Assembly: GCA_021371875.1 (NCBI GenBank)
Contig: JAJFVH010000120.1
Span: forward strand, 16,880 to 80,879
Length of the DNA: 64,000 nucleotides
Origin: Bacteroidales bacterium
Lineage (GTDB): Bacteria; Bacteroidota; Bacteroidia; Bacteroidales; Paludibacteraceae
Reading direction: 5' to 3'
Of the stretch, positions 1 to 25,631 are shown in pieces. The notes beneath the pieces were generated by a model that did no database searches, had not been told where the DNA came from, and was given only the letters and a program-made list of their open reading frames with translations. The first letter of the stretch is position 1; every line of letters begins with the position of its first letter. The position numbers and the translations under genes are program-made.

Positions 1-1287
1 ATAATCACTAAAGTGATTGTATCCGGTAACTATATCTGCAAATTTACCATTGCGATCCGGAGTCCAAAGCGCAACCACACGCCCCCCAAAATTGGTAATT
101 TGTGCCACCATCCCTGAATTATTCTTTAAAGTGTAAAGCAACACTTCTTTACCATCTTTTATGCCTTTGAAATCAGCGTTTTTTATCAACTTAATCCCTT
201 GATTTTTTCCATTGATATTCTTAATAATATTTATTTCGTTTTGATCAAATGGTGTATGATCCTGACGAAAAATATCATGAAACCACAGTTTAGGCTCCTT
301 TACATTTGGCATTGGTTCGTCCCAAGCAAAAATGGTATTCGTTTTTCCTGAAACAAAGCCCCAATTAATAGCTCCTACATGATTTCTTTTAAGCATTGGC
401 ATGATATTTTCGAACTTACTATCATGTTTTCGTGCCATATATTCAGTGCAAATCATTGGGCGATTAAACATTTTCAGATAATTGATTTCCGTCTGATGAT
501 CCTTTACTCCTGAATAATTATGATAGGTGATAATATCGGAATTTTCCACTTGGAAAACATTCAGCTCATTGCATCCAAAATACCAGATTCCTGACGAAAC
601 AGGTTGCGATGGGTTAACTTCACGAGCCCATTTGAAAACATTTTTGAGCAAGGATAAAGAGGAAACTCCGTGGTTGCCATTACCGGGCTCATTGTATAAA
701 TCCCAAAGCAAAATTCGTTTGTCATCTTTAAAAGTGGTGAGAATGTCTTTGACATATTTCTCCAATACTGGAAATAATTTTGTTGTATCTGCTCTCAAAG
801 AAACACTCGGATCTTGCACCCAACCTGAATTATGGATGCCCGGTTTTGAATCGGGTTGTTTTCCATATGAAGATTCGGGATTCCAACAATCATCAAAGAA
901 AACGAACATGGGTCGGATATTATGCTTAGAAGATATTTCCAAGAATTGGTTCATTCGTTTTTTGAATCCTTCTGCATCATTTTTCCAAACCACGCTGCTT
1001 AGAAAAACGCGCATGGTTGTAAAGCCTAATTCTTCAGCCCAACCTAATTCCTTATCAATAGTTGGTGCATCGAATGTTTCAGACTGCCACATTTCTATTT
1101 GGTTGATGGCCGAACTTGGCTGAAAATTGCAGCCACTGAACCAAGTTTGAGCTGAATACCAAGTGGTTGCTTTTTGTTTGGACCATGTTTCTCCCAACTT
1201 TGATAAATTCTTTTTACTGCTTGTTTGAGATAATCCAAGAGTCATTGTCATAAAAATGACGAAATAAAGACAAATTATTCTTTTCAT
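1..1287 (-). CDS. GH5-like glycoside hydrolase fused to aldose 1-epimerase (3' end outside window)
   Basis: I translated this frame from ATG at 1287 to the window edge without meeting a stop, so the gene is partial at its C-terminus. It opens with a signal peptide (MKRIICLYFVIFMTMTLG). A clan GH-A TIM barrel follows, with WDLYNEP, whose Glu is the expected acid/base, and ICTEYMAR, whose Glu is the expected nucleophile. After about residue 350 the sequence changes to an aldose 1-epimerase (mutarotase) start, with the motifs ITNFGGRVVALWTPDRNG and TGYNHFSDY. The product would be a secreted enzyme that cleaves a glycan and interconverts the anomers of the released sugar. It is the last visible gene of the minus-strand glycosidase run, 150 bp after the GH43 gene. 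The exact GH family is inferred from the two Glu motifs only; the fusion itself is read directly. Confidence 0.8.
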   Translation of the reverse strand, partial: MKRIICLYFVIFMTMTLGLSQTSSKKNLSKLGETWSKQKATTWYSAQTWFSGCNFQPSSAINQIEMWQSETFDAPTIDKELGWAEELGFTTMRVFLSSVVWKNDAEGFKKRMNQFLEISSKHNIRPMFVFFDDCWNPESSYGKQPDSKPGIHNSGWVQDPSVSLRADTTKLFPVLEKYVKDILTTFKDDKRILLWDLYNEPGNGNHGVSSLSLLKNVFKWAREVNPSQPVSSGIWYFGCNELNVFQVENSDIITYHNYSGVKDHQTEINYLKMFNRPMICTEYMARKHDSKFENIMPMLKRNHVGAINWGFVSGKTNTIFAWDEPMPNVKEPKLWFHDIFRQDHTPFDQNEINIIKNINGKNQGIKLIKNADFKGIKDGKEVLLYTLKNNSGMVAQITNFGGRVVALWTPDRNGKFADIVTGYNHFSDY

Positions 1288-1437
1288 GCTATGCTTTTTA
1301 TAATTTAATATACTATTAATCATACAGACTTCAATCTTTGCATTCTAATAAACAACATACCCATTAACTTTAGATAATTGATAAATTTTGTGGTAATAAA
1401 TATTTGATTGATAGAATTATATATAAATCAATCCATA

Positions 1438-2493
1438 CTACCTTACATATGGAACAACTGTTTTAAAGTGACTTGGGGTCATTTTCTTAGGCCAACCATT
1501 TGACTCCCATATTAATTTATCAATTAAAAGTTCTCTTGCAGTATATTTGTCTTCTCCAATAGGTGCTTTTTTAGACCGGTTAATCGCATGATATAATATC
1601 CAGTAATCATTGTTATCATCCTGAATAATAGAATTATGCCCTGGAGCTAACCAATAATCATTTTCAACTAATATACTATTATCAGCACAACCGGTATCTT
1701 CTGAAATAGTAACGAATGGACCTGTAGGGGACTTAGAACGAGCAATTAATACGGCATAATGAGCCTTATCACCACAACAATTATCGCCGGAATAAAACAT
1801 ATAATAGTAATTATTTTTATGAATAATCCATGGACCTTCAACCAAAATTTCATAATTTTTTGAAGATGTGAAAATTATATCCTGTGGTTTGCTTCCTTCT
1901 TTTAAAGTTAATAAATTTCCATCCATTTCCTGAACTTTAATAGGTTTAAATCCAGAACCCCAATATAAATAAACTTTATTGGTTGTGGAATCAATATATA
2001 CAGTTGGATCAATATTTTCAAAACTTTTACCATAAACTATCGGTTTATCTTCGGGATTAAATGGTCCTAACGGATTATCTGATATTGCAACACCAATACC
2101 CATTCCCGACTTATCGTTTTGTTCTGCTGAAAAGTATAAATAATATTTTCTATTTGCATAAATAACAAATGGAGCCCAATAAGAATCTGTTTTATTTGCC
2201 CATTTAGCTTTTACAGGTAATGCATCCGGACATTCAATCCAATTGATTAAATCTTTGGATTTTAAGATTCGAATATTTCCATACTCTCCATTTAGATATT
2301 TCCCATTAGTGGCATAAGCATAGAAAGTATTATCTGAAGTGCGAATAATAGCGGGATCTGGGAAATCATTATTATAAACAGGATTTTTGAACTCTGTAAT
2401 TTTAACCTCATTTATTGATTTTTGAGCTAAACATGAATAATCAAAAAGGACAAAAAGGAGAATTGAAATTCGAACAGAAATATATTTACTCAT
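1438..2493 (-). CDS. GH43 family glycoside hydrolase (arabinofuranosidase/xylosidase type)
   Basis: A 351-residue protein with an N-terminal hydrophobic signal segment ending near residue 23 (SCLAQ), so it is probably exported to the periplasm. The five-blade propeller signature of GH43 is present. Asp46 lies in FPDPAI (general base), Asp162 in ENIDPTVYID (pKa modulator) and Glu219 in LVEGPW (general acid). The length fits a single-domain GH43 without an accessory module. Family members remove arabinose or xylose from arabinoxylan, arabinan or their oligosaccharides; the bond cut here is not decided by the sequence. It lies 55 bp after the UroD-thioredoxin gene on the same strand, so it closes the methyl-transfer block on its downstream side. 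Confidence 0.88.
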   Translation of the reverse strand: MSKYISVRISILLFVLFDYSCLAQKSINEVKITEFKNPVYNNDFPDPAIIRTSDNTFYAYATNGKYLNGEYGNIRILKSKDLINWIECPDALPVKAKWANKTDSYWAPFVIYANRKYYLYFSAEQNDKSGMGIGVAISDNPLGPFNPEDKPIVYGKSFENIDPTVYIDSTTNKVYLYWGSGFKPIKVQEMDGNLLTLKEGSKPQDIIFTSSKNYEILVEGPWIIHKNNYYYMFYSGDNCCGDKAHYAVLIARSKSPTGPFVTISEDTGCADNSILVENDYWLAPGHNSIIQDDNNDYWILYHAINRSKKAPIGEDKYTARELLIDKLIWESNGWPKKMTPSHFKTVVPYVR

Positions 2494-2548: not shown

Positions 2549-3904
2549 TTATTTTTTTTTAATTATATTCTCAATAGCCATTTTTAACTCATTTATTGGA
2601 GGTATATTTGATACAAATGCAATCGCACCATCAATACAAAGTGTTGGAATGTTTTTAGCTCCGATAGCCGATAAAAACTCAAGACCTTCGGGTGTTTTGA
2701 TTGAACGTTCAATACAAATAACTTTATCTCCAAATTCTTCACAAGCACGTTTGGCTGCTTCGAGCATATATTGACAAGGAGCACAACTCGACGAATCAAG
2801 CGTAATGACATCTATAATCACTCTGCTAGTTGAACCATAAGCAGTTTTATCAATCGGCTTAACTTCAACATATTTTGCTTCCATAGCCCGTATCACATCA
2901 CGGCGATATTCATCGTTGATTAAATTAGTAACTGCCACCAAATTTTCCCTCGGGGTAGCATAAGCTAAATCGCAACCCGGGGACATTATGTAACCTTTAT
3001 TACCACCAATATCCATACAGTCAACCGCATTACGTTCACAATCTTCGGGTGTCCCTAATAGAAGTGCCGAGGTAAGCAATAAGTTACCGCCGAAGCTAAT
3101 ACCGCTTTTCAGGCAGATTTTCTTTACATATTCCAACGGGATATTCTCGTCAATAGAAATATTATCAGGTTTGCAGGCGCACATCACTTCGATATTGTGT
3201 TGAGCATGTCCGCAAACAAAAAACGATGAACTCATACCCTGTACTTTGATATGGTCGAACACCTGTGTGCAATATTTAGTGACAAATTGTTCAAACTGGT
3301 CAGCGCCAATCTGCGAAGTCATGGGGTCGACAACTGCAATCACATCACAACCGGCTTCCTTGTAATAATTAGTCATAGCAATACAAACTCCTGTACAGAA
3401 TTCCATTAGTTTGTGCACATATTGTTCGTCCATAAACATTTTCAGAAAAATATCGGTACCCAGTAAGTGTAATCCCAACGTGAAAGGGCCTGTAATTAAA
3501 CCATAAAGTGCCAGGTCAGGGTTATTAGCCCTCAGTTGACGGGTAGCTTCCATCACAACAGCAATACGTCCTTCGGTAGTTGCAGGGATTTTCAGATCTT
3601 CCAGCAATACACTTTCCATCAATGGATGAGTATGTACTGCCGGGGGATTTTCATTTGCCCATACTAATCCGCAACCCAGGCATTCGGCTTCCAGTTGCAG
3701 GTCGAACACAATGGGAATTCCATCGGGATTGTATAATTCTATTGCTTTTGTTACTCCTTTAACGATTAACTCTGTTGATTTGAGGTATTCTTCAGCTGTT
3801 ATTCCCAAAAGTGAAGCAGCATGAACACCAACAAAGGGCACCCAGGGCACCCTAATAGTTTCCTTTAATGCAAAAGCTTGTTTTAATAATTGTTTCCCGC
3901 GCAT
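2549..3904 (-). CDS. UroD/MtaA-family corrinoid methyltransferase with C-terminal thioredoxin-like domain
   Basis: A 451-residue protein without a signal peptide. Residues 1 to about 345 match the uroporphyrinogen-decarboxylase-like fold of MtaA/CmuA methyltransferases, which take a methyl group from a corrinoid protein to a thiol or pterin acceptor. The C-terminal 90 residues are a separate thioredoxin/glutaredoxin-like domain with a Cys374-Ala-Pro-Cys377 motif and a following NIPTLCIDG strand. The usual zinc motif His-x-Cys reads Phe229-Val-Cys231 here, with His233 two residues later; the later Cys311 in SPGCD is kept. The gene is the last of the methyl-transfer block, 110 bp after a CobW gene. 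It most likely passes the methyl group from the corrinoid protein at 8129-8803 to tetrahydrofolate, because Bacteroidota are not known to use coenzyme M. That acceptor is inference. Confidence 0.82.
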   Translation of the reverse strand: MRGKQLLKQAFALKETIRVPWVPFVGVHAASLLGITAEEYLKSTELIVKGVTKAIELYNPDGIPIVFDLQLEAECLGCGLVWANENPPAVHTHPLMESVLLEDLKIPATTEGRIAVVMEATRQLRANNPDLALYGLITGPFTLGLHLLGTDIFLKMFMDEQYVHKLMEFCTGVCIAMTNYYKEAGCDVIAVVDPMTSQIGADQFEQFVTKYCTQVFDHIKVQGMSSSFFVCGHAQHNIEVMCACKPDNISIDENIPLEYVKKICLKSGISFGGNLLLTSALLLGTPEDCERNAVDCMDIGGNKGYIMSPGCDLAYATPRENLVAVTNLINDEYRRDVIRAMEAKYVEVKPIDKTAYGSTSRVIIDVITLDSSSCAPCQYMLEAAKRACEEFGDKVICIERSIKTPEGLEFLSAIGAKNIPTLCIDGAIAFVSNIPPINELKMAIENIIKKK

Positions 3905-4014
3905 AATTAGTTTAATAAGTTGTATAGATTGATGTCATGAATTAGTTATCTTATTGTTGCATTCATAGGTGTCTGATTTGTTTAATATTGATCGGAATAA
4001 AATCTGGTTAAATA

Positions 4015-4914
4015 TTATTTTAAAATTACCAGTTTCCTCAAAAGGAATTCAAAGTCTATATTTATTTTACCAATGCTTATAATTTCAGTAGTAAGCATGG
4101 TTTTGTCTACCGGTGTAAGAGTCGTCTGACCAAAAACCGATTGAATCATGACAGCTTCATTGTTGTCAAGTATGAAATACCCTTTTAGCCTGTAAACCTC
4201 TTCATTCAGGGAGCTTACCAAATAATCCAGGTTCTTGCGTTTAATAGCGTATGGTGTCCTGTAAACCTGTGTCCTGATTCCTTTTATCGGACCGACGGGT
4301 TGTCCATTAATGACAAGTGATTTTTCAGAAAGTAAATCATCCATCTTCAACCGACAATAGGTCGTAAAAACGAAATTGGCTAATGGATTAGTATTTTTCA
4401 ATTCGTCTTCCAATATAGCTTTCTTTTCGTCAGATATCAAATCTATTTTATTCACGATAATATTTTCGGCAATAACCATTTGATTTTTCACTGCCGGCAG
4501 CATCTTTACTTTATCGTAATGTTGGGCATCTATTACTGTCCATATTTTAGAAAGATAAAGTAATTGTTGTAAAGCCTCTTCCATAAGCAATTCTCCAATG
4601 GCAATGGGATCAGCAAGTCCTGTTGCTTCGAGTAAAACAATATCGGGTTTATATGCCTCAACAAATATTTTCAGTTGTCCGCGGAAATCAGAAAACATAC
4701 ATACACAAAAAACCGAACCTTTGTTTACTTCCATTAAATCAAAACGCCAGCCGCCAGCTTGCAATTCTTTTCCATCGATACCTGTTTCAGCAAATTCGTT
4801 TTGTATAACGGCAATGCGTTTTTTGTCGGCAAATTGTTCGAGGACAGTCTTCAAAAAAGTTGTCTTGCCACTTCCCAAAAAGCCAGTGATAAGATGAAAA
4901 GGGATTTTCGACAT
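4015..4914 (-). CDS. CobW/G3E-family GTPase (COG0523) with variant metal motif
   Basis: A 299-residue cytoplasmic G3E GTPase. The Walker A loop GFLGSGKTT is at residues 11-19, and a VNKIDL guanine-specificity motif is in the middle. The family metal motif, usually CxCC, reads Cys70-Val-Cys72-Met73, so the last Cys is a Met. Family members hydrolyse GTP to place Zn, Ni or Co, or to support cobalamin-dependent enzymes. The position between a zinc-dependent MtaB homologue and a UroD-like methyltransferase suggests loading metal into one of these or helping the corrinoid protein; this is inference. It lies 92 bp downstream of a second, more canonical CobW gene with which it shares only the general fold. 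Its G+C content is visibly higher than that of its neighbour. Confidence 0.85.
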   Translation of the reverse strand: MSKIPFHLITGFLGSGKTTFLKTVLEQFADKKRIAVIQNEFAETGIDGKELQAGGWRFDLMEVNKGSVFCVCMFSDFRGQLKIFVEAYKPDIVLLEATGLADPIAIGELLMEEALQQLLYLSKIWTVIDAQHYDKVKMLPAVKNQMVIAENIIVNKIDLISDEKKAILEDELKNTNPLANFVFTTYCRLKMDDLLSEKSLVINGQPVGPIKGIRTQVYRTPYAIKRKNLDYLVSSLNEEVYRLKGYFILDNNEAVMIQSVFGQTTLTPVDKTMLTTEIISIGKINIDFEFLLRKLVILK

Positions 4915-5006
4915 AAAATATTATTGTTTTGAATATTTATGAATAGCACTGATATTAAAGTTCTTTTTAATAACATACTTAATGAAACATCACTTTGATT
5001 ATAAGT

Positions 5007-5927
5007 TTAATATTGACAAACAATCGTTTTTTCAATTTCAATTTTTATCTTCTCGGCATTTGTATTATCACCTTTCATATAAATTACAATAAGAATATTT
5101 GATTCTTTATTTGAACATAATTCAGTTTGAAACCCAGTGAGTGTATAGTTGCAAAGGTTCCAATTTGTTTTTGTTCTTAGATATCCTTTTGCTCTAACAA
5201 TTTCCGATTGACAGTTAAAAAAATTTGACAGTTTTTTCATGTCAAATACAATATTTGCATTTATATTGAAATGAGTTATTCGATAATTTTCGTCTAGTTT
5301 TTCAATTTTATCCAAATTTGATGAACTTATTTTTTGTTCTAAAAATTCATCCATTCCTAAGTCATTTTCGGAGATGAATTTTTGATATTTTTTATTTGGA
5401 AATTTTTTTTTGAACAATTCAATCAGCCTGTTTTCTTCAGCTTTATCTGTTTGCAAATCGCATTTTGAGAGAACAATTTTATCTGAATTTTTTATTTGTA
5501 ATTGATAAATTGGATTTATCTGCAATTTATTATTTTCAAGGCCAGTAATGTCTACCATACAAATGGTATTGACTAAATAAAGTTGAAGATTCATTTTTAC
5601 TATCTTCGAAACCATATCAATACCCCCTAAACCGCTCGGTTCAATAATAATTCGATCAAAGTCTAGAGTGTTAACAATTTGATTTAAACTTTCAGTGAAA
5701 TATTCCTTTGAAGAACAGCAAATACAACCTCCCGAAATATTAAAAATTGAATCAAATGTAGGTAAGGAGTTACAGATTATTAAACTATCAATTGAAATCT
5801 TTCCAAATTCATTGATAATAACCGCCCACTTTTCATTGCTAATTTGTTCGTGCAACAGTTGAACTATGGCAGTTGTTTTACCTGAACCTAAAAAACCGGA
5901 AATGATATTTACTGGAATTTTTTTCAT
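5007..5927 (-). CDS. CobW/G3E-family GTPase (COG0523), canonical CxCC
   Basis: A 306-residue cytoplasmic GTPase. Walker A is GFLGSGKTT at residues 11-19. The canonical metal-binding motif is Cys68-Ile-Cys70-Cys71 (GGCICC), and the base-specificity motif LSKCD follows. The C-terminal domain is the usual short CobW C domain. It sits 69 bp after mtaB and 92 bp before the other CobW gene, so the two are probably co-transcribed with the methyltransferases. As a metallochaperone of the G3E group it could deliver zinc to MtaB or act on the corrinoid cofactor. The sequence is very AT-rich compared with the second CobW gene, which argues against a recent tandem duplication. Confidence 0.87.
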   Translation of the reverse strand: MKKIPVNIISGFLGSGKTTAIVQLLHEQISNEKWAVIINEFGKISIDSLIICNSLPTFDSIFNISGGCICCSSKEYFTESLNQIVNTLDFDRIIIEPSGLGGIDMVSKIVKMNLQLYLVNTICMVDITGLENNKLQINPIYQLQIKNSDKIVLSKCDLQTDKAEENRLIELFKKKFPNKKYQKFISENDLGMDEFLEQKISSSNLDKIEKLDENYRITHFNINANIVFDMKKLSNFFNCQSEIVRAKGYLRTKTNWNLCNYTLTGFQTELCSNKESNILIVIYMKGDNTNAEKIKIEIEKTIVCQY

Positions 5928-5996
5928 CGAAAAGAATTAATAAATCAAGATAAATCAATCTGAGATATAATTAAAAATCTCCAAATTATTAATTCT

Positions 5997-7373
5997 CTAT
6001 AATCCATACTCTGACAAAATAAATTTACTCGAATCGAGAACCGGCAACATCATCTCAATAAATTCACTTTCATTGTCTGGAATAGAATTCAGTTCTTCTC
6101 TAAAAATAGGTAAATAATTAGTTTCCAATTCTGAAAGTTGCATTCTTTTGGAATTAAGAGCTTCTTCAATAATATTGAGGGCACACAATGCTCCGTTGCG
6201 AGCATTAGAAATATACGAATCGCCTTTTATCAGTTCTTTGGAAATACGAATGACGTTTTCGGGTGCCAAAATCAACGCCTGTGGATCAGTATAAATGTCA
6301 GATGACACAAGTAGTTGTTGTAAAACAGAACGGTGTAATTTCCCTTCGCGCAGTGCCTCGTTCATTAATCTCACATCATATTCCAGCTGTTCCATATATG
6401 CTGTTGGAGCCATCCCAGATAGAAGTTTTATATTTTGAACTGATTCATTACTCCATAAATCTGTACAAGCAGAAGCAATGTTTCCAATGGGACTCAAGTG
6501 GGCACAAGCTGCCGTTTTTCCTTCCATGGAAATAGGAATACCAGTAATAGCTTTAATGAATGGTCCCTCGTATCCACAATCTTTATCCGGTCCAACTGCC
6601 CCTTGTTCTATAGCAACGATAGAACGAACAACCGAAATAACGCGCACCAAAGAAGCAAATATTTTGGGAATATATTTTTTCTCAGCTAAAACCATTGCAG
6701 TATTAGCAAATCCACAAGCTGAATCGCCTGCAGCAATTTTACCTTGCGACTTAGCTAAAGAAACTATTTTTCCCCAGAGAAATTGCATATCCCGAACTCC
6801 TAATACAGTTAATGCAAACATGATTCCTTTTATGTCGCACATCATCAATGCTTCGTCGGAAACTTCTTTGCCTCCGGTACTTTCAATTGATAATAAGTCG
6901 GCACCTGCACGCATTCCTTCTTCAAAGAGTTCCATCATCGGGTCCAAATATTTAGAAGTTCGTTGCAATGCAGGTCGTTCAAATTCACGTAAATCGTTTG
7001 GTGTAAGTCGTATTTCGGACTTTAAGCCGTATTTTAGATAATAATTTTCACAAATTTCATTCATTATTTTTACAATTTCCACGCCAATAGTTGGTGTTTT
7101 CGTCATTTCTAATAATGTTTCGAATTCTAGAACAACACCTTTAGAATTGAGATGTAAAGCTCGTTCCAAAGCACCTTCAGCAATTTCACGATAATTTGTA
7201 TAAACTTGATTAAGTGAACTATTGTTGATAGTCATTATTGGTAAAGTAAAATTTAGCTCGGCATAAACTTGCCCGCCGCCAATTTCAAGTCCACGGCGAG
7301 TAATTACAGGTTTTGGTGCTATACCAAACATCAAATCTTCAGGATTATTTATTGTTAATTTGTTGTATTTCAT
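5997..7373 (-). CDS. mtaB: MtaB-like methanol:corrinoid methyltransferase
   Basis: A 458-residue protein with end-to-end similarity to methanol:5-hydroxybenzimidazolylcobamide methyltransferase, which splits the C-O bond of methanol and methylates the corrinoid protein MtaC. The zinc ligands known from Methanosarcina barkeri MtaB (Glu164, Cys220, Cys269, from memory) are present as Glu164 in LSIESTGG, Cys220 in GDSAC and Cys266 in VGPDKDCGYEG. The diagnostic stretch MEGKTAACAHLSPIGN is also there. No signal peptide, so cytoplasmic. The gene lies 13 bp after the activation-domain gene and 69 bp before a CobW gene. The substrate could be methanol or a related primary methoxy compound; retention of all zinc ligands points to an active C-O cleaving enzyme. 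The family assignment is firm, the substrate is inference. Confidence 0.92.
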   Translation of the reverse strand: MKYNKLTINNPEDLMFGIAPKPVITRRGLEIGGGQVYAELNFTLPIMTINNSSLNQVYTNYREIAEGALERALHLNSKGVVLEFETLLEMTKTPTIGVEIVKIMNEICENYYLKYGLKSEIRLTPNDLREFERPALQRTSKYLDPMMELFEEGMRAGADLLSIESTGGKEVSDEALMMCDIKGIMFALTVLGVRDMQFLWGKIVSLAKSQGKIAAGDSACGFANTAMVLAEKKYIPKIFASLVRVISVVRSIVAIEQGAVGPDKDCGYEGPFIKAITGIPISMEGKTAACAHLSPIGNIASACTDLWSNESVQNIKLLSGMAPTAYMEQLEYDVRLMNEALREGKLHRSVLQQLLVSSDIYTDPQALILAPENVIRISKELIKGDSYISNARNGALCALNIIEEALNSKRMQLSELETNYLPIFREELNSIPDNESEFIEMMLPVLDSSKFILSEYGL

Positions 7374-7386
7374 TTGATTTTAGCTT

Positions 7387-8091
7387 TTAAATTAATTTTA
7401 CATTTTTGTGCGAATATATGCAGTTTTTCATGAAGCAAATTTCACAAGTATAAGCATTGAATTTTACGTTTTTACCTATGCCGATAATACCACTTACACT
7501 CTTTATTGGATTCATAAGACATGTGTCAGACAAAACAATAGAGTTAAAATCTGCAGGTAAGAGTTTGAATAAATGCTTTTGTTCAGCAACATTCCAGCCA
7601 CAATAGCCTGGACTGTATCGATTAGTAATTTTCAATTCGTATTGTTTAAATTCATTTAGAAGTATGTCTTGAATTTTATCCATTGCAGCTTCAACAATTA
7701 CTGAGCCTGCAATATCAGCAAAATATGCTTTAATTATATCTCCCTTTTTAGTCATTTCTTTGGCATAACTTTCAAGTCCATTTCCAATTGTACATGCAAA
7801 AATGGCAATATTCTCAGATTTTCTTAATTGCATTGTTACTATTCGCTCGGTTTGTAGCACAGTTGATTTTATCAGTGTTTGATAATTCAACTCGTCGAAA
7901 GATACAGCATTATAAATAGTACAAACTCCATCAATTTTACATAATTTGGATGCTTGAACTAATACTTCTGATATATAATCAGAAAAAATTGGAGGACAAA
8001 ACTCTTTTTCATAGCCAGCTATAACCTCAATATTAGAAACTGAAACATCTAAATCAGAGTAATTAAAATTAAATCGTTTAATTTCCATCAA
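7387..8091 (-). CDS. Stand-alone methionine-synthase (MetH) activation-domain-like protein
   Basis: A 234-residue protein resembling the C-terminal reactivation domain of cobalamin-dependent methionine synthase, here without the catalytic or B12 domains. The S-adenosylmethionine-binding signature of that domain (Arg-x-x-x-Gly-Tyr) appears as Arg158-Tyr-Ser-Pro-Gly162-Tyr163. A cysteine cluster (Cys216, Cys219, Cys224) lies near the C-terminus. In MetH the domain reductively methylates oxidised cob(II)alamin using SAM and flavodoxin. Located 37 bp after mtaC and 13 bp before mtaB, it most likely reactivates the corrinoid of MtaC. That would replace the iron-sulfur RamA/RACE ATPase used by many methyltransferase systems; none is seen in this window. 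Confidence 0.8.
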   Translation of the reverse strand: MMEIKRFNFNYSDLDVSVSNIEVIAGYEKEFCPPIFSDYISEVLVQASKLCKIDGVCTIYNAVSFDELNYQTLIKSTVLQTERIVTMQLRKSENIAIFACTIGNGLESYAKEMTKKGDIIKAYFADIAGSVIVEAAMDKIQDILLNEFKQYELKITNRYSPGYCGWNVAEQKHLFKLLPADFNSIVLSDTCLMNPIKSVSGIIGIGKNVKFNAYTCEICFMKNCIYSHKNVKLI

Positions 8092-8128
8092 AATTTAATT
8101 TTTATAATAAACAAAATTTATTATCAGT

Positions 8129-8803
8129 CTAATTTTTCTCAACTATTTTATTTAAATATTCAATCACTCCTTGAGGATTCGAAGAATAATGATTTGCCCC
8201 AATTTGTATACAGAAATCTTGATTAAGTGGCGCTCCACCCACCAAAATTTGTTTTGAAGGATACTTTTTTCTTATTTCCTTTACAATTGATTCCATATTC
8301 ATCATTGTGGTGGTTAATAAAGCAGAAAGAGCAACAACACAATCTTTATGTTGATCGATTGCATCGATAAATTTTTGAGGTTTTACATCTACTCCTAAAT
8401 CAATCACTTTCCAACCTGCACCTTCCACCATCATTGCAACAAGATTTTTTCCAATATCGTGTAAGTCACCAAAAACGGTACCAATTATAAATACACCTTT
8501 GAGTTCAATTTCTCCAGAACTAAAAAACGGTTTCAAATGAACCATTGCAGCGGCCATAGCTTTAGCTGCCATTAGCATTTCTGGAACATAGGCTTTACCT
8601 TCACTAAATTTTTGACCAACACGTGACATTGCAGGAATTAATGCAACATTTAAAATTTCCTGAGGACTTAAACCGGCTTCAAGCGCTTCTTTACAAATTT
8701 CATCAGCACCAGGTAATCCTTTTAATTTTGGAGGATATGACGATGCAAAATTTATTTTACCAAATTCAATTGATTCAGCTAAATTTTCGATTAGATTGTT
8801 CAT
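8129..8803 (-). CDS. mtaC: MtaC-like corrinoid (B12-binding) protein
   Basis: A 224-residue protein when started at the ATG at 8803 (MNNLIENLAESI). This fits the family better than the upstream ATG at 8872, which would add 23 residues of poor match. The N-terminal four-helix cap domain includes the family motif GEGKAYVPEML-like at residues 68-77. A Rossmann B12-binding domain follows, with Asp113-Leu-His115-Asp-Ile-Gly118 (DxHxxG), whose His coordinates cobalt from below. SALLTTTM and GGAP also match. The protein carries the methyl group between MtaB (5997-7373) and a UroD/MtaA-like enzyme (2549-3904 or 17718-19034). It is the first gene of the methyl block, about 80 bp after the GH39-like gene on the same strand. 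Confidence 0.9.
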   Translation of the reverse strand: MNNLIENLAESIEFGKINFASSYPPKLKGLPGADEICKEALEAGLSPQEILNVALIPAMSRVGQKFSEGKAYVPEMLMAAKAMAAAMVHLKPFFSSGEIELKGVFIIGTVFGDLHDIGKNLVAMMVEGAGWKVIDLGVDVKPQKFIDAIDQHKDCVVALSALLTTTMMNMESIVKEIRKKYPSKQILVGGAPLNQDFCIQIGANHYSSNPQGVIEYLNKIVEKN

Positions 8804-8882
8804 AATAAATTTATTTAATTGTTTTATTTTAAGATATTTGGCGTTTAATATAGTGATAATTGACTCATGCACTATAAATTAT

Positions 8883-11297
8883 TTAATGGTTTAATATTAT
8901 TTTTTTGATTTGTTTCTCATTTTCATTTTGTGTAACCAACAAATAGATACCATTTGGCAAATTATTCATACCAGCCCATTTAATATCACTATCTTTTGAT
9001 ATTGTCTCCTTACGGTATATTTTTCCATCGATTGATATTAAACTGACATTTGTTAATGAATTAATGCCTGATAAATGAATAATTAGTTCGTCATTAAGAA
9101 TGGGATTAGAATAAATTATTTTTAATACAGGTTTTGATAAATCTACCAAACCAGAGATTATACTAAATGAAAAGTAATCCATAAATACTACATCTCCTAC
9201 GAAATCAATTTCAATAACTTGTTTCCCTTGATTCAGAAAAATCGGTGTTGATATTTCGTTAAATTTAGCCCAACTATTTGTTGAAGGTAAAAGCAAGTCT
9301 TTATAGAGTCCATTTTTAAAGTTTATTTTAATTTTGGAGTTTGTATTTTTTGTAGCATAGTCCACTGTTAAATTATATGTTCCTGTATTTGGAACATTAA
9401 TTGTATATTTTAGCCATTCCCCAGAATAAGTTGATGTCAAAAAAGTATTGCTTGATGATTGGCTAATATCAACACCTTCATTTAAACGATAAGCCCCTCC
9501 TGTATTTTGATTGTCAGTGTCATGATAAGCTATACCTTCTCCGCCTAAATCAAAATCTTCAAACTCAATTTTGCATGGAATAGTAAAGACCTTATATGGA
9601 GTTTCAACAGGCAATACGTTAAATGACGTTGTAACAGAAGATGGAGAATAAAAATCATTTCCACTTTGATATGCCTTGACAGTAACCTTCCCTGCAATTT
9701 TCTGCAACGTAATTACATTTCCATTAATTGTTGCCGGACCTGATTCAATTGAGTATGTTATTGGGAACAAATCGGCATCAGAATTGGCTTTAATTTCAAA
9801 AGGCATATCTGCTATATTTTTAGTGGAAATCGTATCAAAAGTAAGACGTTGTAACTTCCTAGCATCTTTCCATACTTTCAAAAAGACAAATCCTTCAACC
9901 GAAAAATTTAATCTTCCCAAATCGGTTAATTTAAAAACGGTTGATGCCGTTGGAAATTGATCATTCTCTGAAAAGGATTTTTTGTCAATATCATATTTTA
10001 TTACGTTATAATTATCTAAACTCCCTGTTAATTCTTTGAATTGAATAGATAAGGTGGTGTCTTTTGAACTTCTGTTCCAAATTGCCAAATAAGTAGTATC
10101 GTTTTCAGTAGATGCTAAGCCCTGAAAATTATCTGTAGAAAAAGTCATAGGTATTCTTTTACCTTTCATTTGCCCATAAAACCAAAAAGCGTAATATGCA
10201 GCATTATAAGTATAAAAGGTTTGACCACTTTTAAGGAAATGCCAATTTACAAAAGGGAAAAAAGTCCAATAATCATAAGTTTCACCCCATCCTTCAATAT
10301 ATTGTCCAACACTTTGAGCCCAAAATATTTTGTCTACTCCTTTTAATGAATCTAAGCCCATTTGGAACAAAGTTTCAAAAGTTCGGGCGCAGTTTCGATA
10401 GCTTATAAATGATTTAGATTTTGAAAATGCAGTATTCCAGTCACCATAAGCCCAACTGAATTCGGATATTATAAATTCAGTTTTCTTATTAATTGCCTCC
10501 CTTGTTAAAGCATACTTATCGAAAACGTTTTTAGCTTTATCAAATCTATCAATTGCACCTGCATGATCAGATTGTGATAGAGAAAGTGTTTCATCCCATT
10601 CGTAATAATGATGATATGAAATAAAATCGAGACTAAGATTATCCTGAATTATTTTATCAATAAATTGCTTATACCAAATATCATTAGGAGTTCCTGCCCA
10701 GGCAAATCCACAACCTCCTAATTTTAAATTTGGATGTGCTTGACAAATAGGGGTAATACAATCTACAGCAAATTTAAATTCTGAATAAAAATCGTTAAAC
10801 GTCGTGTAGCCAGTATACCAATTCCAAGCAGACAAATCAGGTTCTCCAAAAAGTTCCAGATAAATATCTTTTCCATTCGATGCATTCACCAAAGCATTTG
10901 CTATACTTGTAAAGAAGTTATACATCTTTGTTGAGTCTCCCTTGACATTAGGGTGCGTGTTTATTGTAATAAAATTGGTACAACCATTATTCTGAGTTCT
11001 TTTAATTATCCAAACTTGAGAATTGCCATCGTCAATCCATGTCCCGTCAGCAGTTTGCTTATTTACATCCAACTGAAAACGATTGAACTTTAGATTTAAT
11101 GGACCAAGAGTTTTTACTGAGTCATAAATTTGATCCATCCATAAAACTTTCTCAGGGGAATAACCTCCAAATTTTTTGTCAAGTAACTCTGTATTTGAAT
11201 TATCATTAATGAATACAGTTGTTATTGACTGAGCTTTAATACCTAGTATTAAAATAAATAAGCAACCTATAATAAATTTAACTTTGTATTTGTACAT
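8883..11297 (-). CDS. Secreted GH39-like (clan GH-A) glycosidase with CBM6 and type IX sorting domain
   Basis: An 804-residue protein with a signal peptide (residues 1-22). A TIM-barrel catalytic part has Glu152 in LFGEPD (acid/base) and Glu279 in FIISEFSW (nucleophile), the arrangement of GH39 and related clan A families. An Ig-like linker spans roughly 470-570. A CBM6-type module at about 575-715 starts IEFEDFDLGGEGIAYHD. A C-terminal sorting domain of about 75 residues ends in LPNGIYLLVTQNENEKQ. The last domain directs type IX secretion to the cell surface. GH39 enzymes are mostly beta-xylosidases; the precise specificity is not visible. It follows the GH2-like gene by 44 bp and precedes mtaC by 79 bp, so it forms the border between glycan enzymes and the methyl-transfer genes. 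Confidence 0.8.
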   Translation of the reverse strand: MYKYKVKFIIGCLFILILGIKAQSITTVFINDNSNTELLDKKFGGYSPEKVLWMDQIYDSVKTLGPLNLKFNRFQLDVNKQTADGTWIDDGNSQVWIIKRTQNNGCTNFITINTHPNVKGDSTKMYNFFTSIANALVNASNGKDIYLELFGEPDLSAWNWYTGYTTFNDFYSEFKFAVDCITPICQAHPNLKLGGCGFAWAGTPNDIWYKQFIDKIIQDNLSLDFISYHHYYEWDETLSLSQSDHAGAIDRFDKAKNVFDKYALTREAINKKTEFIISEFSWAYGDWNTAFSKSKSFISYRNCARTFETLFQMGLDSLKGVDKIFWAQSVGQYIEGWGETYDYWTFFPFVNWHFLKSGQTFYTYNAAYYAFWFYGQMKGKRIPMTFSTDNFQGLASTENDTTYLAIWNRSSKDTTLSIQFKELTGSLDNYNVIKYDIDKKSFSENDQFPTASTVFKLTDLGRLNFSVEGFVFLKVWKDARKLQRLTFDTISTKNIADMPFEIKANSDADLFPITYSIESGPATINGNVITLQKIAGKVTVKAYQSGNDFYSPSSVTTSFNVLPVETPYKVFTIPCKIEFEDFDLGGEGIAYHDTDNQNTGGAYRLNEGVDISQSSSNTFLTSTYSGEWLKYTINVPNTGTYNLTVDYATKNTNSKIKINFKNGLYKDLLLPSTNSWAKFNEISTPIFLNQGKQVIEIDFVGDVVFMDYFSFSIISGLVDLSKPVLKIIYSNPILNDELIIHLSGINSLTNVSLISIDGKIYRKETISKDSDIKWAGMNNLPNGIYLLVTQNENEKQIKKIILNH

Positions 11298-11341: not shown

Positions 11342-14300
11342 CTATTCTTTGTATTCAAATTTTATTCTGCTTATGTTGCTGCCTCCTCCTTTAAAAAACA
11401 CTCTAAGGGTTTGTTTTCCTGATTCTAATTTCAATAAAACACGATATTCACGAAAAGCAAACCAATCACCGGTAGATGGAAGTTTTATTTCTCCTCCTTT
11501 ATTTATACCATCAAACATCAAAAGCAAAGAACTGCTGTTTCCCAGAGTGGCATATTCGAATGCAACACTGAAAGTTCCAGACTTTTTAACGTCAATGTTA
11601 TACTCCATCCATTCACCAGAGTTAATCCAACCTACAAAAAGATTCCCGTTTTGAGAACTTATGTCCACTCCATCTGCTCGATATTCTTTCCCTTGATTGA
11701 TTTCATCATCATCGTGATAAGCAATACCTTCCCCACCCAAATTGTAATCAACCATTTGTAATATTCCAGGTAGCGCCACAGGTTCTCCTTTGAACGGTAA
11801 TTCCAGAGAGTTTCCTTTGACTCTTAATTGATTGTCCATAGTAAGCATGTTGAAAAATATCATATCACACAGCGGATGTTTCTGGTCAATTTGATACGAA
11901 CTGTTTAACAATATTCTGCCTTTTCCATAATCTATTTCACCTAATAAAATTAAAAGTTTGTCAGGCCTTGCAAAATAAGCGCCATAAGCTCTTGTTTTAC
12001 AATCAGGATTTGTTGTTATCAATGGATAAAACCCTATTTGTTCTTGATTTAGACTTTGTATTCCTAACTCCCAACTATTTGTTCCAATTGTACTTTTACT
12101 TGGTATTGCCTGATTACCAATAAAATAATCCAAGTATCCCCATCCGTTTCCCATCCATGAACCTTCAATTTTAGCAGAACCAAATTTAGGAATTTCGGCA
12201 ATTATTTTCTTAGAATAAAGCAGACTAGCCCATTCTTCGTTAAAGTTAAGTAATAAAATTGTACCATCTTCTTTTACACGTTTTAATAAATTGTCAATTA
12301 TTTCAACAGAAGGTAATTGGAGTCCGGCACATATAAAACTTTGTATACCAATCCTTTTATCAAAATTAGAAATTTGCACTTTAGCCTCCTTAAGTGCTAT
12401 AGATGCTTCCGGCCAATTGATAACGGAACCTGTATAATCAACAAATTGGTTATTAAATGAAGATCTGTTATTTAATAGTATTTGTTCATTTCCCGAAGCA
12501 ACTTCTTTATTTTTGTTTTCATAAAGTTTTGCCTCTAATGTGATGTATCCACCTTTCCAATTACGGAGTTTAACAGGTAAATTACAAATATGTTGAGCGA
12601 AAACATCTCCTCCTCTAACTGATATAACCTGTTCTGAATCATATGGGACATATTCACCTTCACCGTCTTTTATTTTTAATTTTAGCAGGTAATTGCCAGA
12701 TGCTAGTTTATTTTGATTTACTAACGTTATTTCAAAAATAGCAATATCAGAAGGGTTAAAAATAGCTCCGTTTATTCGTTTGATACATATTTGTAATGGT
12801 TTTGTCCAATAGGCATAATCTGATGCTACACCTTTTATATTTCGACTTGCATCAAGAATTGATGACGACCAATATCCTCCCTCTCCTGGAACAACTTCAG
12901 TCGTTCCACTCCAACCATTAATACCAAAACCATCAACATTATTCCGAGATATTAAGTTTTGAACTGCTCGACCATTAATGTACATTAGTCCTCTACCTGC
13001 TTGAACAGATACATCTTCCGGTGATATGATAACTCTACTTCCGGTTGTACTTAAATTACATTCTTTAAAAAATGAGAAGATTTTATCATGAAGTGGTCGA
13101 TAATAATTTGCTCCCCATTTTGCTTTTTGATCCAAATCCTCTGCTGACTTATACCAATTATCAGGGCCTCCATAGCAATGAACTTCTCCCCAATATTGCA
13201 AATTCTTAGTTTCATAGGTATGTGAAAATAGAAATGGTTCATAAAATACTCCCTTATACTCTTCTACTGTATGATTGTCTTCATATTTATCAGTTATTCG
13301 GTTTTCGTAAGGCCTAATATGATTAATATAATTACTTGGTGACATTTGAAAAATATCGAAAATATATCCCCCAGATGAATTTGAAACCATGACAGTTGGA
13401 TTAAGTTTATGAATAAGTTTCATACATTTTTCCCTTAAAGGAGTCCAATAATTATCTTCATTACATAAGTTATGGATTATTAAGCAAGGACTATTCCGAT
13501 CTCTAATCGCCATACGACGGCATTTTTCAATCATATATTTACCTGCAAAAGTACTATCAGTTACATTATAGCCTTGTTGTCCTGCGTGAAATCCGCCTGG
13601 TTCTTCATAAATATATAAACCTTTCTCATTAGCTTGTTTTAATAATTCAACATCTCCGATATTTCGATGGCAGTTTATACCATTATGGCCAATACTTTTG
13701 GCAGCTAACACCGATTTTTCAGCCATTAATGGTGACGAATAAAGCCCTGTTCCAGTGTAATAACCCCAATCAATAGAAGAAATATTAACTATTCGTTCTC
13801 CGTTAAAGTAAAAGTTGTTATCATTGTTAATTTCTTTAACTTCGAAAGTACGAAAACCAAATAAAACGTTATAGTTATCATTTATCTTATTTCCTTTAAG
13901 ATTAATTTTACACTCATAAAGTGATGGATTATCTATATTCCACAATTCAGCTTCCGGTACTGTTAATTCAATTTTTAATGAATCGTCTTGACAAGATTTT
14001 AAAAAATAGTCATTAGAAAAAATTATTTTCCCAGTTGAATGTGAAACAATTCCTATATTCAAAGAGAATGGCAAAGTATCTTGATTTTCTTTATTGAGAA
14101 TTATATTGACTTTAATTTTCTTTGATCCAGCTGGTAACAAATTTTCAACAAAAACATCTTCAATATATTTTTGATTAGTCGATGTCAACATAATATTTCC
14201 TCCTATACCTCCAAAATCGTGACTTGCCGGGAATTCATAACTTCCCCATTTAAATCCTGGAAAATCTTCCCAACCTCTAAAACCGCCAGGATTTGTTATC

Positions 14301-14809
14301 CGCAATGCAATTTTGTTTTTTTCCCCTGTTTTTAAATTTTTACTTATGTCAACTTGCCATGGAGTTTCTGCAACAATATCATAACCGGAAAGTTTGTTGT
14401 TAACATAAAGTTCACAACGTAAACGAGTAGAAGTAAAATGAATATTAATCGTTTTTCCTTTCCAATTTTTGGGAATATCTACAGTTGTCCAAAACCAAGC
14501 GACACCATGATAAGTGTAAAGAGGATCCCCTTTTGAAAAGTACTCTTCTACAGTTGCAGGGATGTTACAACCTATTCCTTTATCTGCATATAAAGTTTTC
14601 CACCCACAAGTAGGACTATTTTCCGGAAGAGTTTCAATGTTTACTTCTTCAGGTAAATATAGTCTATCATTTTGCCATAATGCAGATGTATCCAACCAAA
14701 CTTTCCAGGATAAGTTCTTTAAAGAAATTTCCTCTCGTTGACCTTTCACCTGGAAGCCCAAGAAAATTGTGAAAATTAGACAAATAATTAATGATTTGAG
14801 AGTATTCAT
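11342..14809 (-). CDS. GH2-like glycoside hydrolase with C-terminal CBM6
   Basis: A 1155-residue exported protein (signal peptide 1-23). The N-terminal half has the GH2 order: sugar-binding jelly roll (FTSTRLRCELYVNNKLSGYD), Ig-like domain, then a TIM barrel with NGINCHRNIGDVELL and the acid/base pair Asn450-Glu451 in HNLCNED. A long beta-rich middle part follows. The last 130 residues form a CBM6 domain (NLGGEGIAYHDDDE) closely similar in its first strand to the CBM6 of the neighbouring gene at 8883. No type IX sorting domain is visible, so it is probably periplasmic. GH2 covers beta-galactosidases, beta-mannosidases, beta-glucuronidases and arabinosidases; the sequence does not choose among them for me. 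Only 4 bp separate it from the GH3 gene upstream. Confidence 0.8.
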   Translation of the reverse strand: MNTLKSLIICLIFTIFLGFQVKGQREEISLKNLSWKVWLDTSALWQNDRLYLPEEVNIETLPENSPTCGWKTLYADKGIGCNIPATVEEYFSKGDPLYTYHGVAWFWTTVDIPKNWKGKTINIHFTSTRLRCELYVNNKLSGYDIVAETPWQVDISKNLKTGEKNKIALRITNPGGFRGWEDFPGFKWGSYEFPASHDFGGIGGNIMLTSTNQKYIEDVFVENLLPAGSKKIKVNIILNKENQDTLPFSLNIGIVSHSTGKIIFSNDYFLKSCQDDSLKIELTVPEAELWNIDNPSLYECKINLKGNKINDNYNVLFGFRTFEVKEINNDNNFYFNGERIVNISSIDWGYYTGTGLYSSPLMAEKSVLAAKSIGHNGINCHRNIGDVELLKQANEKGLYIYEEPGGFHAGQQGYNVTDSTFAGKYMIEKCRRMAIRDRNSPCLIIHNLCNEDNYWTPLREKCMKLIHKLNPTVMVSNSSGGYIFDIFQMSPSNYINHIRPYENRITDKYEDNHTVEEYKGVFYEPFLFSHTYETKNLQYWGEVHCYGGPDNWYKSAEDLDQKAKWGANYYRPLHDKIFSFFKECNLSTTGSRVIISPEDVSVQAGRGLMYINGRAVQNLISRNNVDGFGINGWSGTTEVVPGEGGYWSSSILDASRNIKGVASDYAYWTKPLQICIKRINGAIFNPSDIAIFEITLVNQNKLASGNYLLKLKIKDGEGEYVPYDSEQVISVRGGDVFAQHICNLPVKLRNWKGGYITLEAKLYENKNKEVASGNEQILLNNRSSFNNQFVDYTGSVINWPEASIALKEAKVQISNFDKRIGIQSFICAGLQLPSVEIIDNLLKRVKEDGTILLLNFNEEWASLLYSKKIIAEIPKFGSAKIEGSWMGNGWGYLDYFIGNQAIPSKSTIGTNSWELGIQSLNQEQIGFYPLITTNPDCKTRAYGAYFARPDKLLILLGEIDYGKGRILLNSSYQIDQKHPLCDMIFFNMLTMDNQLRVKGNSLELPFKGEPVALPGILQMVDYNLGGEGIAYHDDDEINQGKEYRADGVDISSQNGNLFVGWINSGEWMEYNIDVKKSGTFSVAFEYATLGNSSSLLLMFDGINKGGEIKLPSTGDWFAFREYRVLLKLESGKQTLRVFFKGGGSNISRIKFEYKE

Positions 14810-22796: not shown

Positions 22797-23765
22797 TTAT
22801 TCGATCGTCATTTGTAAGTCTTTCACTTGAATTTGAAATAGTTGTTTATATTGACTCGGCGAAAAACCCGTATGTTTTTTGAAAGTATCGGAAAAATGTT
22901 GAATTGATGAGAATCCACAATCATATGAAATGTTAGTAAGGGATACATTAGATGATTTTATCATCTCAATTGATTTGAGAATTCTCATTTCAATCAGAAA
23001 ATTAATTGGAGTAAGACCGGTATTATTCTTACAGTGTTCTATAAAGCTTGTAATACCATAATTCATATGTTCAGCCATTTCTTCAATTGTCCAAGCGCGA
23101 CTAATATCTTGTAATACAAAGTCTTTTAACTTTTCAATTGAAAATTCTCTCTCACATTTTTTTTCAATAATAGAATTAGTAAAACCTCTTACCGAATGAA
23201 TAAAGAGTTCTTCTATGCAATTACCAACCCTTGTTGAGCTTCCAATAGTTGGTTTAATTAATTCAGTGAAAAGTTCTGAAAACAAATCTGATAATTTTGA
23301 TTCCCTAAACACGTGACAAGATTTATGTTTAAGAATATTACCAATATCACGTTGTTCATTTAAAGGTATTTTTGACCAATATCCAAGGTCCAAATCCTCA
23401 TTATTGCTAAAGATATTTGGTTTAATAATTATCCAAGAAAGAATACCTAAATCTAAAAAACCCGATTTACTTCCATGATTTTCCCATGGACAAGTAATAA
23501 AAGCATCACCCGGGAAAAGAACATAAGTTTTATCCTCTACCACCCATTCATATTTCCCTTTATGAACATAACAAAACTCAATACCCTTATTTATATGTAA
23601 GTCAAGGGAGCCTCTCTTGATTTTTGAAAATTTCTGTTTAGCAAATTCAAGTATATAAGGATATGGTGACAAGTAGTTTTTGTCTAAAACATGTTTCCTA
23701 ACTTCAGGTAAAGCATCAAATATCTTTGCATCATTGTTAACGATTATAAAATAATCTTGCGGCAT
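22797..23765 (-). CDS. AraC-family transcriptional regulator
   Basis: A 322-residue regulator. The N-terminal half is a cupin-like sensor (KGKYEWVVEDKTYVLFPGDAFITCPWENHG). The C-terminal hundred residues hold two helix-turn-helix units with the AraC signature SYDCGFSSIQHFSDTFKKHTGFSPSQY-like (residues about 280-310). It probably senses a sugar and controls the neighbouring SusCD and transporter genes. It is not a hybrid two-component system, which is the more usual regulator for hemicellulose loci in this phylum. A bidirectional-looking hairpin separates it from susD. Confidence 0.88.
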   Translation of the reverse strand: MPQDYFIIVNNDAKIFDALPEVRKHVLDKNYLSPYPYILEFAKQKFSKIKRGSLDLHINKGIEFCYVHKGKYEWVVEDKTYVLFPGDAFITCPWENHGSKSGFLDLGILSWIIIKPNIFSNNEDLDLGYWSKIPLNEQRDIGNILKHKSCHVFRESKLSDLFSELFTELIKPTIGSSTRVGNCIEELFIHSVRGFTNSIIEKKCEREFSIEKLKDFVLQDISRAWTIEEMAEHMNYGITSFIEHCKNNTGLTPINFLIEMRILKSIEMIKSSNVSLTNISYDCGFSSIQHFSDTFKKHTGFSPSQYKQLFQIQVKDLQMTIE

Positions 23766-25605: not shown

Positions 25606-25631
25606 TGTATTGTTAAATATTTGTTTGTACA

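Follow-up and report, generated by a model that had tools for sequence, protein, structure and literature searches.

The stretch of DNA considered here is a window of 64,000 nucleotides (positions 16,880 to 80,879 of contig JAJFVH010000120.1) from a Bacteroidales bacterium of the family Paludibacteraceae (assembly GCA_021371875.1). At its left end lies a run of 12 minus-strand genes in which a corrinoid methyl-transfer set, including a gene for the methanol:corrinoid methyltransferase MtaB, is interleaved with glycoside hydrolase (GH) genes. The reading favoured here, to which a probability of roughly 0.4 is given on the strength of sequence comparison, is that of an operon for polysaccharide utilization that includes an anaerobic module for handling methyl groups. 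The parts belong to known families, and it is their combination that is new. Many plant and algal glycans bear O-methyl sugars as caps, and an oxygen-free demethylation route encoded beside glycosidases would account for the way in which anaerobic Bacteroidota complete the breakdown of such glycans; it might also supply methanogens with methanol or methylated thiols.

Organization of the Run

As judged from the open reading frame (ORF) list and from Pfam and NCBIfam matches, the run extends from position 19034 to contig position 15995, its last gene ending 885 bp beyond the window edge. In the order of transcription it encodes UroD2, GH3, GH2, a GH39-like protein, MtaC, an activation protein, MtaB, CobWb, CobWa, a UroD-thioredoxin fusion (UroD-Trx), GH43, and a glycosidase-epimerase, with intergenic gaps, from the low-coordinate end, of 114, 55, 110, 92, 69, 13, 37, 10, 44, 4, and 51 bp. 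The original prediction, made from the sequence alone, had described six colinear methyl-transfer genes on the minus strand, adjoined on both sides by glycosidase genes on the same strand, and both statements are borne out by ORF order and Pfam; it had overlooked the first gene of the run, UroD2 (17718..19034), which encodes a distant UroD-superfamily protein.

The methyl-transfer genes proper encode an MtaC-like corrinoid protein (8129..8872; Pfam B12-binding and B12-binding_2), a stand-alone Met_synt_B12 activation domain (7387..8091; PF02965, E 6.7e-10), MtaB (5997..7373; Pfam MtaB, E 2.2e-163), the CobW GTPases CobWb (5007..5927; Pfam cobW), with a CICC metal motif, and CobWa (4015..4914; Pfam cobW and CobW_C), with a degenerate CVC motif, and UroD-Trx (2549..3904; Pfam URO-D, E 1.1e-57). 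The start of MtaC is probably the ATG at 8803, as was originally proposed, the mechanical ORF beginning with a GTG at 8872.

Ahead of these genes are transcribed a beta-xylosidase-like GH3 (14814..17666; Pfam GH3 N- and C-terminal domains and PA14), whose top PDB match is the xylan 1,4-beta-xylosidase 7vc6 (E 4.6e-104), a GH2 with a C-terminal CBM6 (11342..14809; Pfam), which in the PDB resembles beta-galactosidase/glucuronidase-like GH2 enzymes and CBM6, and a GH39-like protein with CBM6 and the Por_Secre_tail sorting domain of the type IX secretion system (T9SS; 8883..11297). The last was recognized by a Pfam GH39 score of 28.7 bits (cut-off 26), the PDB search matching its CBM6 part only. 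Behind UroD-Trx follow a GH43 (1438..2493; Pfam), related in the PDB to xylanase/arabinanase-type GH43 enzymes, and a TIM-barrel glycosidase-aldose 1-epimerase fusion (1..1323, on to contig position 15995) of 735 amino acids at full length. This fusion had been labeled GH5-epimerase; the epimerase part stands, being 51–52% identical to an aldose epimerase of a Melioribacter locus described below (Aldose_epim lies below the Pfam cut-off in the window-truncated part), but the barrel is Glyco_hydro_2_C by Pfam. Because GH3 is nearest to a xylan 1,4-beta-xylosidase and GH43 to xylanase/arabinanase-type enzymes, the glycan target is likely to be pentose-rich. The methyl esters and 4-O-methylglucuronate that had been suggested as methyl sources find no counterpart in the run, where Pfam recognized no esterase or alpha-glucuronidase; GH115 and GH67 had no Pfam match among the window ORFs scanned, and the one GH115 match in the genome lies on a contig (C196) other than that of the operon. 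Rfam gave no cobalamin riboswitch in window positions 1–34000 at E 0.5. A promoter and terminator scan performed no better than on shuffled sequence (92 against 98 and 8 against 9.4, respectively) and is therefore uninformative on transcription.

Sugar-Linked MtaB Loci in Other Genomes

Genome contigs were scanned for MtaB, and the best 80 of 258 matches were taken as loci (numbered L below); an MtaB ORF was recognized in 79, L099 being excluded. A run was defined as same-strand neighbors of MtaB less than 250 bp apart, and loci L006–L022, which are short and partly duplicate sequences, stand outside the run counts. Sugar-related labels were set by hand from Pfam and NCBIfam, with cluster membership used for unscanned homologues (for example, ROK in L025 and L060, and GFO/IDH in L034, L039, and L042). 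Labels for activation protein and RACo cover the entire locus, and contig ends cut many loci. The runs contain 97 ORFs that were unassigned; 57 of these were scanned, and the others count as misses unless named by cluster.

Glycoside hydrolases or carbohydrate esterases (CE) were found in the MtaB run of nine of the 79 loci: L027 (GH29), L048 (GH31), L049 (GH127-like and MGH1-like), L050 (GH28), L053 (GH31, a GH141 domain, and two rhamnosidase-type proteins), L056 (GH127 and MGH1-like; a GtaA-type protein of 684 amino acids was left out of the glycoside hydrolase count), L075 (GH9 and CE15-like), L076 (rhamnosidase-type), and L081 (GH88). With sugar kinases, importers, and catabolic enzymes included, the count is 18/79, and with loci that have GFO/IDH only, 24/79. 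MtaB was detected in 17 of 393 genomes sampled from the order, five of 395 from the phylum, and one of 120 from the family, this last being the genome under study. Sugar genes share the same-strand run of MtaB in at least three of the 17 genomes from the order, namely the present one, G270 (identical in sequence to L059, with a xylulokinase-like protein below the cut-off), and G311 (an MGH1-like glycoside hydrolase with weaker matches below the cut-off). Two further genomes were left uncounted: G384 has a same-strand GH3 gene at a distance of 496 bp, and in G370 a SusD-type gene and a fragment of MtaB are separated by about 500 bp.

The nearest analogue of the window arrangement among the loci found is L049, from Candidatus Symbiothrix dinenymphae, in which genes for UroD, a GH127-like protein, a second UroD, a major facilitator superfamily (MFS) protein, MtaB, MtaC, an activation protein, and an MGH1-like glycoside hydrolase follow one another with overlaps or gaps of at most 35 bp. 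More telling still is L066 (Melioribacter), where one strand carries D-mannonate oxidoreductase, the mannonate dehydratase UxuA, and MtaB, both sugar-acid enzymes scoring above their NCBIfam cut-offs, and the other carries a GH115 alpha-glucuronidase, MtaC, a homocysteine S-methyltransferase, an activation protein, a UroD protein, an esterase, and a GH9; further along there are an SSF transporter and the aldose epimerase mentioned above. GH115 enzymes free (4-O-methyl)glucuronate from xylan, and UxuA and the oxidoreductase serve glucuronate breakdown; given these functions, L066 may plausibly serve to break down 4-O-methylglucuronate, homocysteine being one acceptor of the methyl group. GH115 as a general partner of MtaB was nevertheless rejected, only one of 28 GH115 genes (in 31 genomes), that of L066, lying near MtaB.

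Homocysteine S-methyltransferase genes accompany MtaB and MtaC in four loci, L066 (17340–18934, with a PF02574 match) and, by membership of the same cluster, L081 (12113–12997), L048 (18845–19723), and L119 (2101–2988), with an activation protein beside them in L066, L081, and L119. The arrangement resembles a split methionine synthase that would receive its methyl groups from MtaB or UroD in place of methyl-folate. Iron alcohol dehydrogenase, PdxA-like, and threonate-kinase-like genes, which correspond to four-carbon sugar-acid breakdown, occur shortly before MtaB in L048 (5521–8915) and L053 (5822–9311), the L053 copies being judged by likeness only.

MtaB, Its Corrinoid Carrier, and Accessory Proteins

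The Pfam match of MtaB spans residues 3–460 of 460, and the protein aligns nearly end to end with 2i2x_A, the MtaB of Methanosarcina barkeri type (E 1.8e-90). The zinc ligands, which we take from 2i2x to be Glu164, Cys220, and Cys269 in identity and numbering, are kept in 84 of 84 aligned rows, 2i2x included, and MtaB probably handles methanol because these methanol-type ligands are unchanged throughout. The score for the NCBIfam MtaB equivalog, 430 bits against a cut-off of 720, falls short of the threshold. A sugar-specific MtaB recognizable by sequence was rejected as a candidate, the zinc ligands and their surroundings being unchanged. These observations bear on the proposal that MtaB itself demethylates an O-methyl sugar with MtaC as acceptor. 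Loci such as L075, where MtaB is the sole recognized methyltransferase in a glycosidase run, fit that proposal, but the ligands and 93 positions that agree with 2i2x in 97% or more of the rows are conserved from methanogen to sugar-linked MtaB, and the sequences give no sign of a larger pocket, so that direct demethylation by MtaB appears improbable.

The MtaC-like protein has the cobalt-ligand motif DxHxxG in the form DLHDIG at residue 136, and its nearest PDB structure is 1y80. It scores below the NCBIfam cut-off for MtaC (109 against 420 bits) and also below that of its top model, MtgC_2 (183 against 370 bits). The activation-domain protein would reactivate the Co(II) corrinoid with S-adenosylmethionine (SAM), and CobWb is predicted to load zinc.

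UroD Proteins and Their Zinc Sites

The zinc positions of the UroD proteins were read against MtaA (4ay7), which UroD-Trx matches with E 7.9e-23. In place of the MtaA-type H-x-C...C site UroD-Trx has F-x-C...C, the zinc histidine being replaced by phenylalanine, and its C-terminus is thioredoxin-like, with a CAPC motif and an NCBIfam HUIPC Trx-like match (E 1e-7) that lies under the model cut-off. The same F-C-C pattern is present in all four UroD-Trx proteins aligned (window, L065, L067, and L074). UroD-thioredoxin-like proteins about 56% identical to that of the window stand beside or near MtaB in the Bacteroidota loci L065, L067, L074, and L079, and the run of L065 also carries a ROK kinase and a xylose-isomerase-like protein.

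Other UroD proteins near MtaB fall into further groups. Cluster 5, often encoded between MtaC and MtaB in RACo-type operons, has H-C-C in 14 of 15 members, the exception being the H-D-G protein of L066, and the 14 members of cluster 7 have H-C-H (10), H-D-H (two), H-C-N (one), or a third place that is unreadable (one). A tentative third group of UroD-like proteins (L048, L053, and L087), only weakly like UroDs and with no Pfam match in the two members scanned, has H-D in 3/3. In the accessible text of PMC10418091, H-C-C marks S-methyltransferases, and replacement of a cysteine by a carboxylate or non-coordinating residue marks O-methyltransferases. Cluster 7 may accordingly be O-type, this being an extension of our own, as histidine in place of cysteine is not covered in the results of that paper. 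In sugar-linked loci the UroD proteins mostly depart from the thiol-type H-C-C.

UroD2 has no Pfam or NCBIfam match. In hhalign it reaches probabilities of 90% and 92% with two UroD groups, 84% with the tentative third group, and 2% with the UroD-Trx group; a YGCCEP motif, common to both known UroD2 copies, lies near the zinc-site position in profile alignments. Homologues occur in two of 393 genomes of the order and one of 395 of the phylum, the present genome included, and the gene for the other UroD2 is followed by one resembling UroD cluster 7. An AlphaFold model of UroD2 built from a two-row alignment had a mean predicted local distance difference test (pLDDT) score of 42.5 and was not used.

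A Proposed Pathway

In the favored reading of a polysaccharide-utilization operon with its own methyl module, secreted GH3, GH43, GH39-like, and GH2 enzymes would cut a pentose-rich, partly O-methylated glycan, and a XylE-like carrier, encoded just beyond the run (21385..22749, plus strand), would import the released sugars. In the cytoplasm, methyl groups of the glycan, arriving as O-methyl sugar or freed methanol, would pass via the MtaC corrinoid, with MtaB dealing with methanol at one end and a UroD protein acting at the other; UroD-Trx would probably methylate a thiol, with UroD2 as a candidate for the sugar-facing enzyme. Zinc loading would fall to the CobW proteins, and the repair of oxidized corrinoid, in place of RACo, to the activation-domain protein with SAM. 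A single transcript, secretion, the substrate, the direction of flow, and the acceptor are all inferred.

The route by which methyl groups leave is suggested by what was not found in the genome. No RACo (PF14574, which Ram/RACE proteins are likewise taken to carry), no methylenetetrahydrofolate reductase (MTHFR), and no pterin-binding protein beyond two that by length and place are FolP-like and MetH-like, and hence no stand-alone folate methyltransferase, was found in the genome, which is 88% complete and for which these absences are therefore suggestive only. MTHFR is present in 26 of 30 genus genomes, so its absence may reflect incompleteness, and loss of MTHFR as a lineage trait was set aside. 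Growth on methyl groups via methyl-folate is accordingly unlikely, and the absences point to a thiol (through UroD-Trx) or methanol as the exit. Thiols trap methyl groups in cobalamin demethylation, according to the accessible text of PMC10946705. The set had at first been described as a complete-looking methanol-type one, but it is not complete in that UroD-Trx is without the zinc histidine, the carrier scores under the MtaC cut-offs, and neither RACo nor a stand-alone folate methyltransferase was found.

A bolder, acceptor-free variant is hydrolytic demethylation, in which a UroD O-demethylase would pass the methyl group to MtaC and MtaB would run in reverse (R-OCH3 + H2O -> R-OH + CH3OH). 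It would explain MtaB beside non-thiol-type UroDs in sugar operons without a recognized acceptor (for example, L049, L060, L076, and L083), and, if true, fermenters without methyl-folate metabolism could clear methyl-capped sugars freed by their own glycosidases. We regard it as unlikely.

Weighing of the Proposed Functional Link

Two kinds of MtaB operon can be recognized. Many RACo loci have the order MtaC, in some an H-C-C UroD, MtaB, CobW, and RACo, with a divergent AraC gene in front, and the window belongs to the kind with an activation protein only. Of the loci with an activation protein but without RACo, eight of 10 are sugar-linked, against 10 of 69 among all other loci (Fisher p 5.8e-5). 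Runs with only non-H-C-C UroDs are sugar-linked in 8/12 cases, against 1/9 for H-C-C-only runs (p 0.024, with no tree correction). At least 15 of the 97 unassigned run ORFs are glycoside hydrolases (57 scanned), against none by Pfam among 10 random ORFs from outside the runs (one aldose epimerase, one PNGase F-like protein, and one MFS protein were among them), a comparison biased by the run ORFs having been picked by eye and not at random.

Several results weigh against the favored reading. Independent pairs on the MtaB tree point in the same direction as the Fisher test with a median p of 0.25, which is not significant, and the association of activation-only operons with sugar genes was set aside for that reason; without the three tentative UroD-like proteins, the UroD contrast becomes 6/10 against 1/9 (p 0.057, likewise uncorrected for the tree). 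Homologues of the window glycoside hydrolases, SusC, and SusD make up one of 102 non-core ORFs within runs against 13 of 379 outside (ORFs of at least 250 amino acids in each case), which indicates that sugar-degrading genes are frequent in these genomes in general. Linkage to glycosidases is confined to a minority of the 79 loci, themselves drawn from the best 80 of 258 matches with 40 of the 97 unassigned run ORFs unscanned, and it is scattered on the MtaB tree, with 10 changes per 11 positive rows. Such scatter reads as repeated recruitment or chance proximity and not as inheritance, and, at 10 changes for 11 positive rows, it is also expected from chance insertion. Within the window itself, the F-C-C site of UroD-Trx differs from the ligand set of cluster 7, and the zinc site of UroD2 is unreadable in the alignment. 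Proximity of GH115 to MtaB is confined to L066, and no MtaB was found in six listed genus mates or in 119 of 120 family genomes. The original prediction had held that glycan breakdown is coupled to methyl removal and had looked to conservation of the neighborhood in relatives. Similar pairings of MtaB with sugar genes elsewhere and the L066 set favor the coupling, but the exact arrangement was found in none of the relatives examined. Because the controls disagree, the argument for function depends on individual loci, not on any demonstrated excess.

The most substantial competing explanation, possible but on our assessment doubtful, is a methanol-scavenging cassette that landed horizontally in a polysaccharide locus, drawing on ambient methanol (for example, from pectin) and having only a promoter in common with its neighbors. 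The window MtaB is 81–84% identical to, and groups with (support 97/84), the MtaB of 14 loci. Twelve of these 14 rows hold RACo, and only L027, with its GH29, has a recognized glycosidase in the run, which counts against the favored reading and is what a cassette would predict. The invariant methanol-type zinc site, the low G+C content of the region, the absence of MtaB from the listed genus mates, the lack of enrichment of window-type GH/Sus homologues in MtaB runs, and L050, which ties a similar operon to a GH28 polygalacturonase, all agree with it. Against it, the window set is without RACo and has UroD2 and UroD-Trx, the methyl genes are interleaved with the glycosidases and not merely beside them, and other MtaB clades are also sugar-linked. 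The window is thus of the activation-only kind, yet its MtaB groups with mostly RACo loci, and the cassette looks like a RACo-type MtaB recruited into an activation-only kind of operon.

Origin of the Region

The assembly comprises 2.97 Mb in 233 contigs, with a listed contamination of 0.01. Over about 14–56 kb of the contig the G+C content is 0.30–0.37, compared with 0.36–0.42 to the left and 0.37–0.43 to the right, and the reading preferred for the region is that of an island gained by horizontal transfer. An assembly chimera, in which the low-G+C part would come from another organism, is suggested by the fragmented assembly and by the G+C step near window 39–40 kb. On the left, where relatives were compared, the change in G+C is gradual with no sharp step, and a gene beyond the low-G+C part (contig 5435–7057) is present in 29 of 30 genus genomes, the present one included, and 97% identical in one of them, so the contig is the host's on that side; together with the low contamination, this makes a chimera very improbable. 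The rise in G+C from about 0.30 to 0.40 near window 39000–40000 is likely to be the right border of the island, and a transposase and a Fic-domain protein lie within the low-G+C part (window 31430–34345). No tRNA, as looked for at an island border, was found in the window.

Comparison With Known Systems

The window system shares with MtaABC of methanogens and acetogens the MtaB fold, the E/C/C ligands, a DxHxxG carrier, and a UroD protein in the place of MtaA. It differs in a carrier that scores under the MtaC cut-offs, in the F-C-C site and thioredoxin domain of UroD-Trx, in being embedded among glycosidases, and in that no stand-alone folate methyltransferase was found in its genome.

Type 1 mlp clusters, as described in the accessible text of PMC10418091, likewise combine UroD methyltransferases with a corrinoid and an activating protein and have no folate methyltransferase in the cluster, but they are proposed for selenium or sulfur and have H-C-C almost throughout. 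A role in methyl-sulfur or methyl-selenium metabolism of that kind, unrelated to glycans, would suit the retention in UroD-Trx of both cysteines of the thiol-type site and its thioredoxin domain. Such clusters are, however, defined by Mlp2 and Mlp3 with H-C-C together with Ram/RACE, whereas UroD-Trx has F-C-C and no PF14574 match was found in the genome; moreover, MtaB is present here, the neighbors are glycosidases, and the accessible text mentions MtaB for methanogens only. We consider this role decidedly improbable.

The nearest functional analogue appears to be a P450 from the porphyran loci of marine Flavobacteriia that demethylates 6-O-methyl-D-galactose (PMC10033563, accessible text); there too the demethylating enzyme stands among glycoside hydrolases and sugar-binding and transport genes. 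That enzyme is a monooxygenase yielding formaldehyde, whereas the window system depends on a corrinoid and would need no oxygen. MtgBCDE of Ruegeria, which couples a split methionine synthase to the demethylation of glycine betaine, also places one corrinoid protein between a catabolic donor and an acceptor; its donor is glycine betaine, and MtaB is not mentioned in the accessible text (PMC12478193). It resembles L066, in which PF02574 and an activation protein stand beside MtaC. Among the titles and abstract openings in the capped lists of a literature search, with thin coverage of subscription journals, the P450 of marine bacteria was the sole sugar demethylase, and none described a polysaccharide locus with corrinoid methyltransferases, in agreement with the original remark that no such locus was known.

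Surroundings of the Run and a Second Corrinoid Cluster

Divergent to the run lie a gene for a malectin-type protein with two matched stretches and a T9SS tail (19686..21068, plus strand; Pfam) and that for the MFS sugar importer (Pfam Sugar_tr), which among solved structures comes closest to the D-xylose-proton symporter 4gby (E 5.3e-71) and whose relatives in L049, L056, L068, and L087 are 29–39% identical. They are followed on the minus strand by an AraC-family regulator with a cupin domain (22797..23765; Pfam), a SusD and SusC pair (24049..28670; Pfam SusD, TonB plug, and carboxypeptidase-regulatory-like domains), and a GH43 with malectin and a T9SS tail (28803..30761; Pfam). The SusC/SusD pair, glycosidases, and regulator that together characterize a polysaccharide utilization locus are thus present, but in a run separate from that of the methyl genes. 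The genome has a second corrinoid cluster of host-like G+C content on contig C135 (L104, 2836–7745), which encodes a 7TM-HD receptor, an MtaC-like protein, a UroD with H-C-C, and an activation-type protein.

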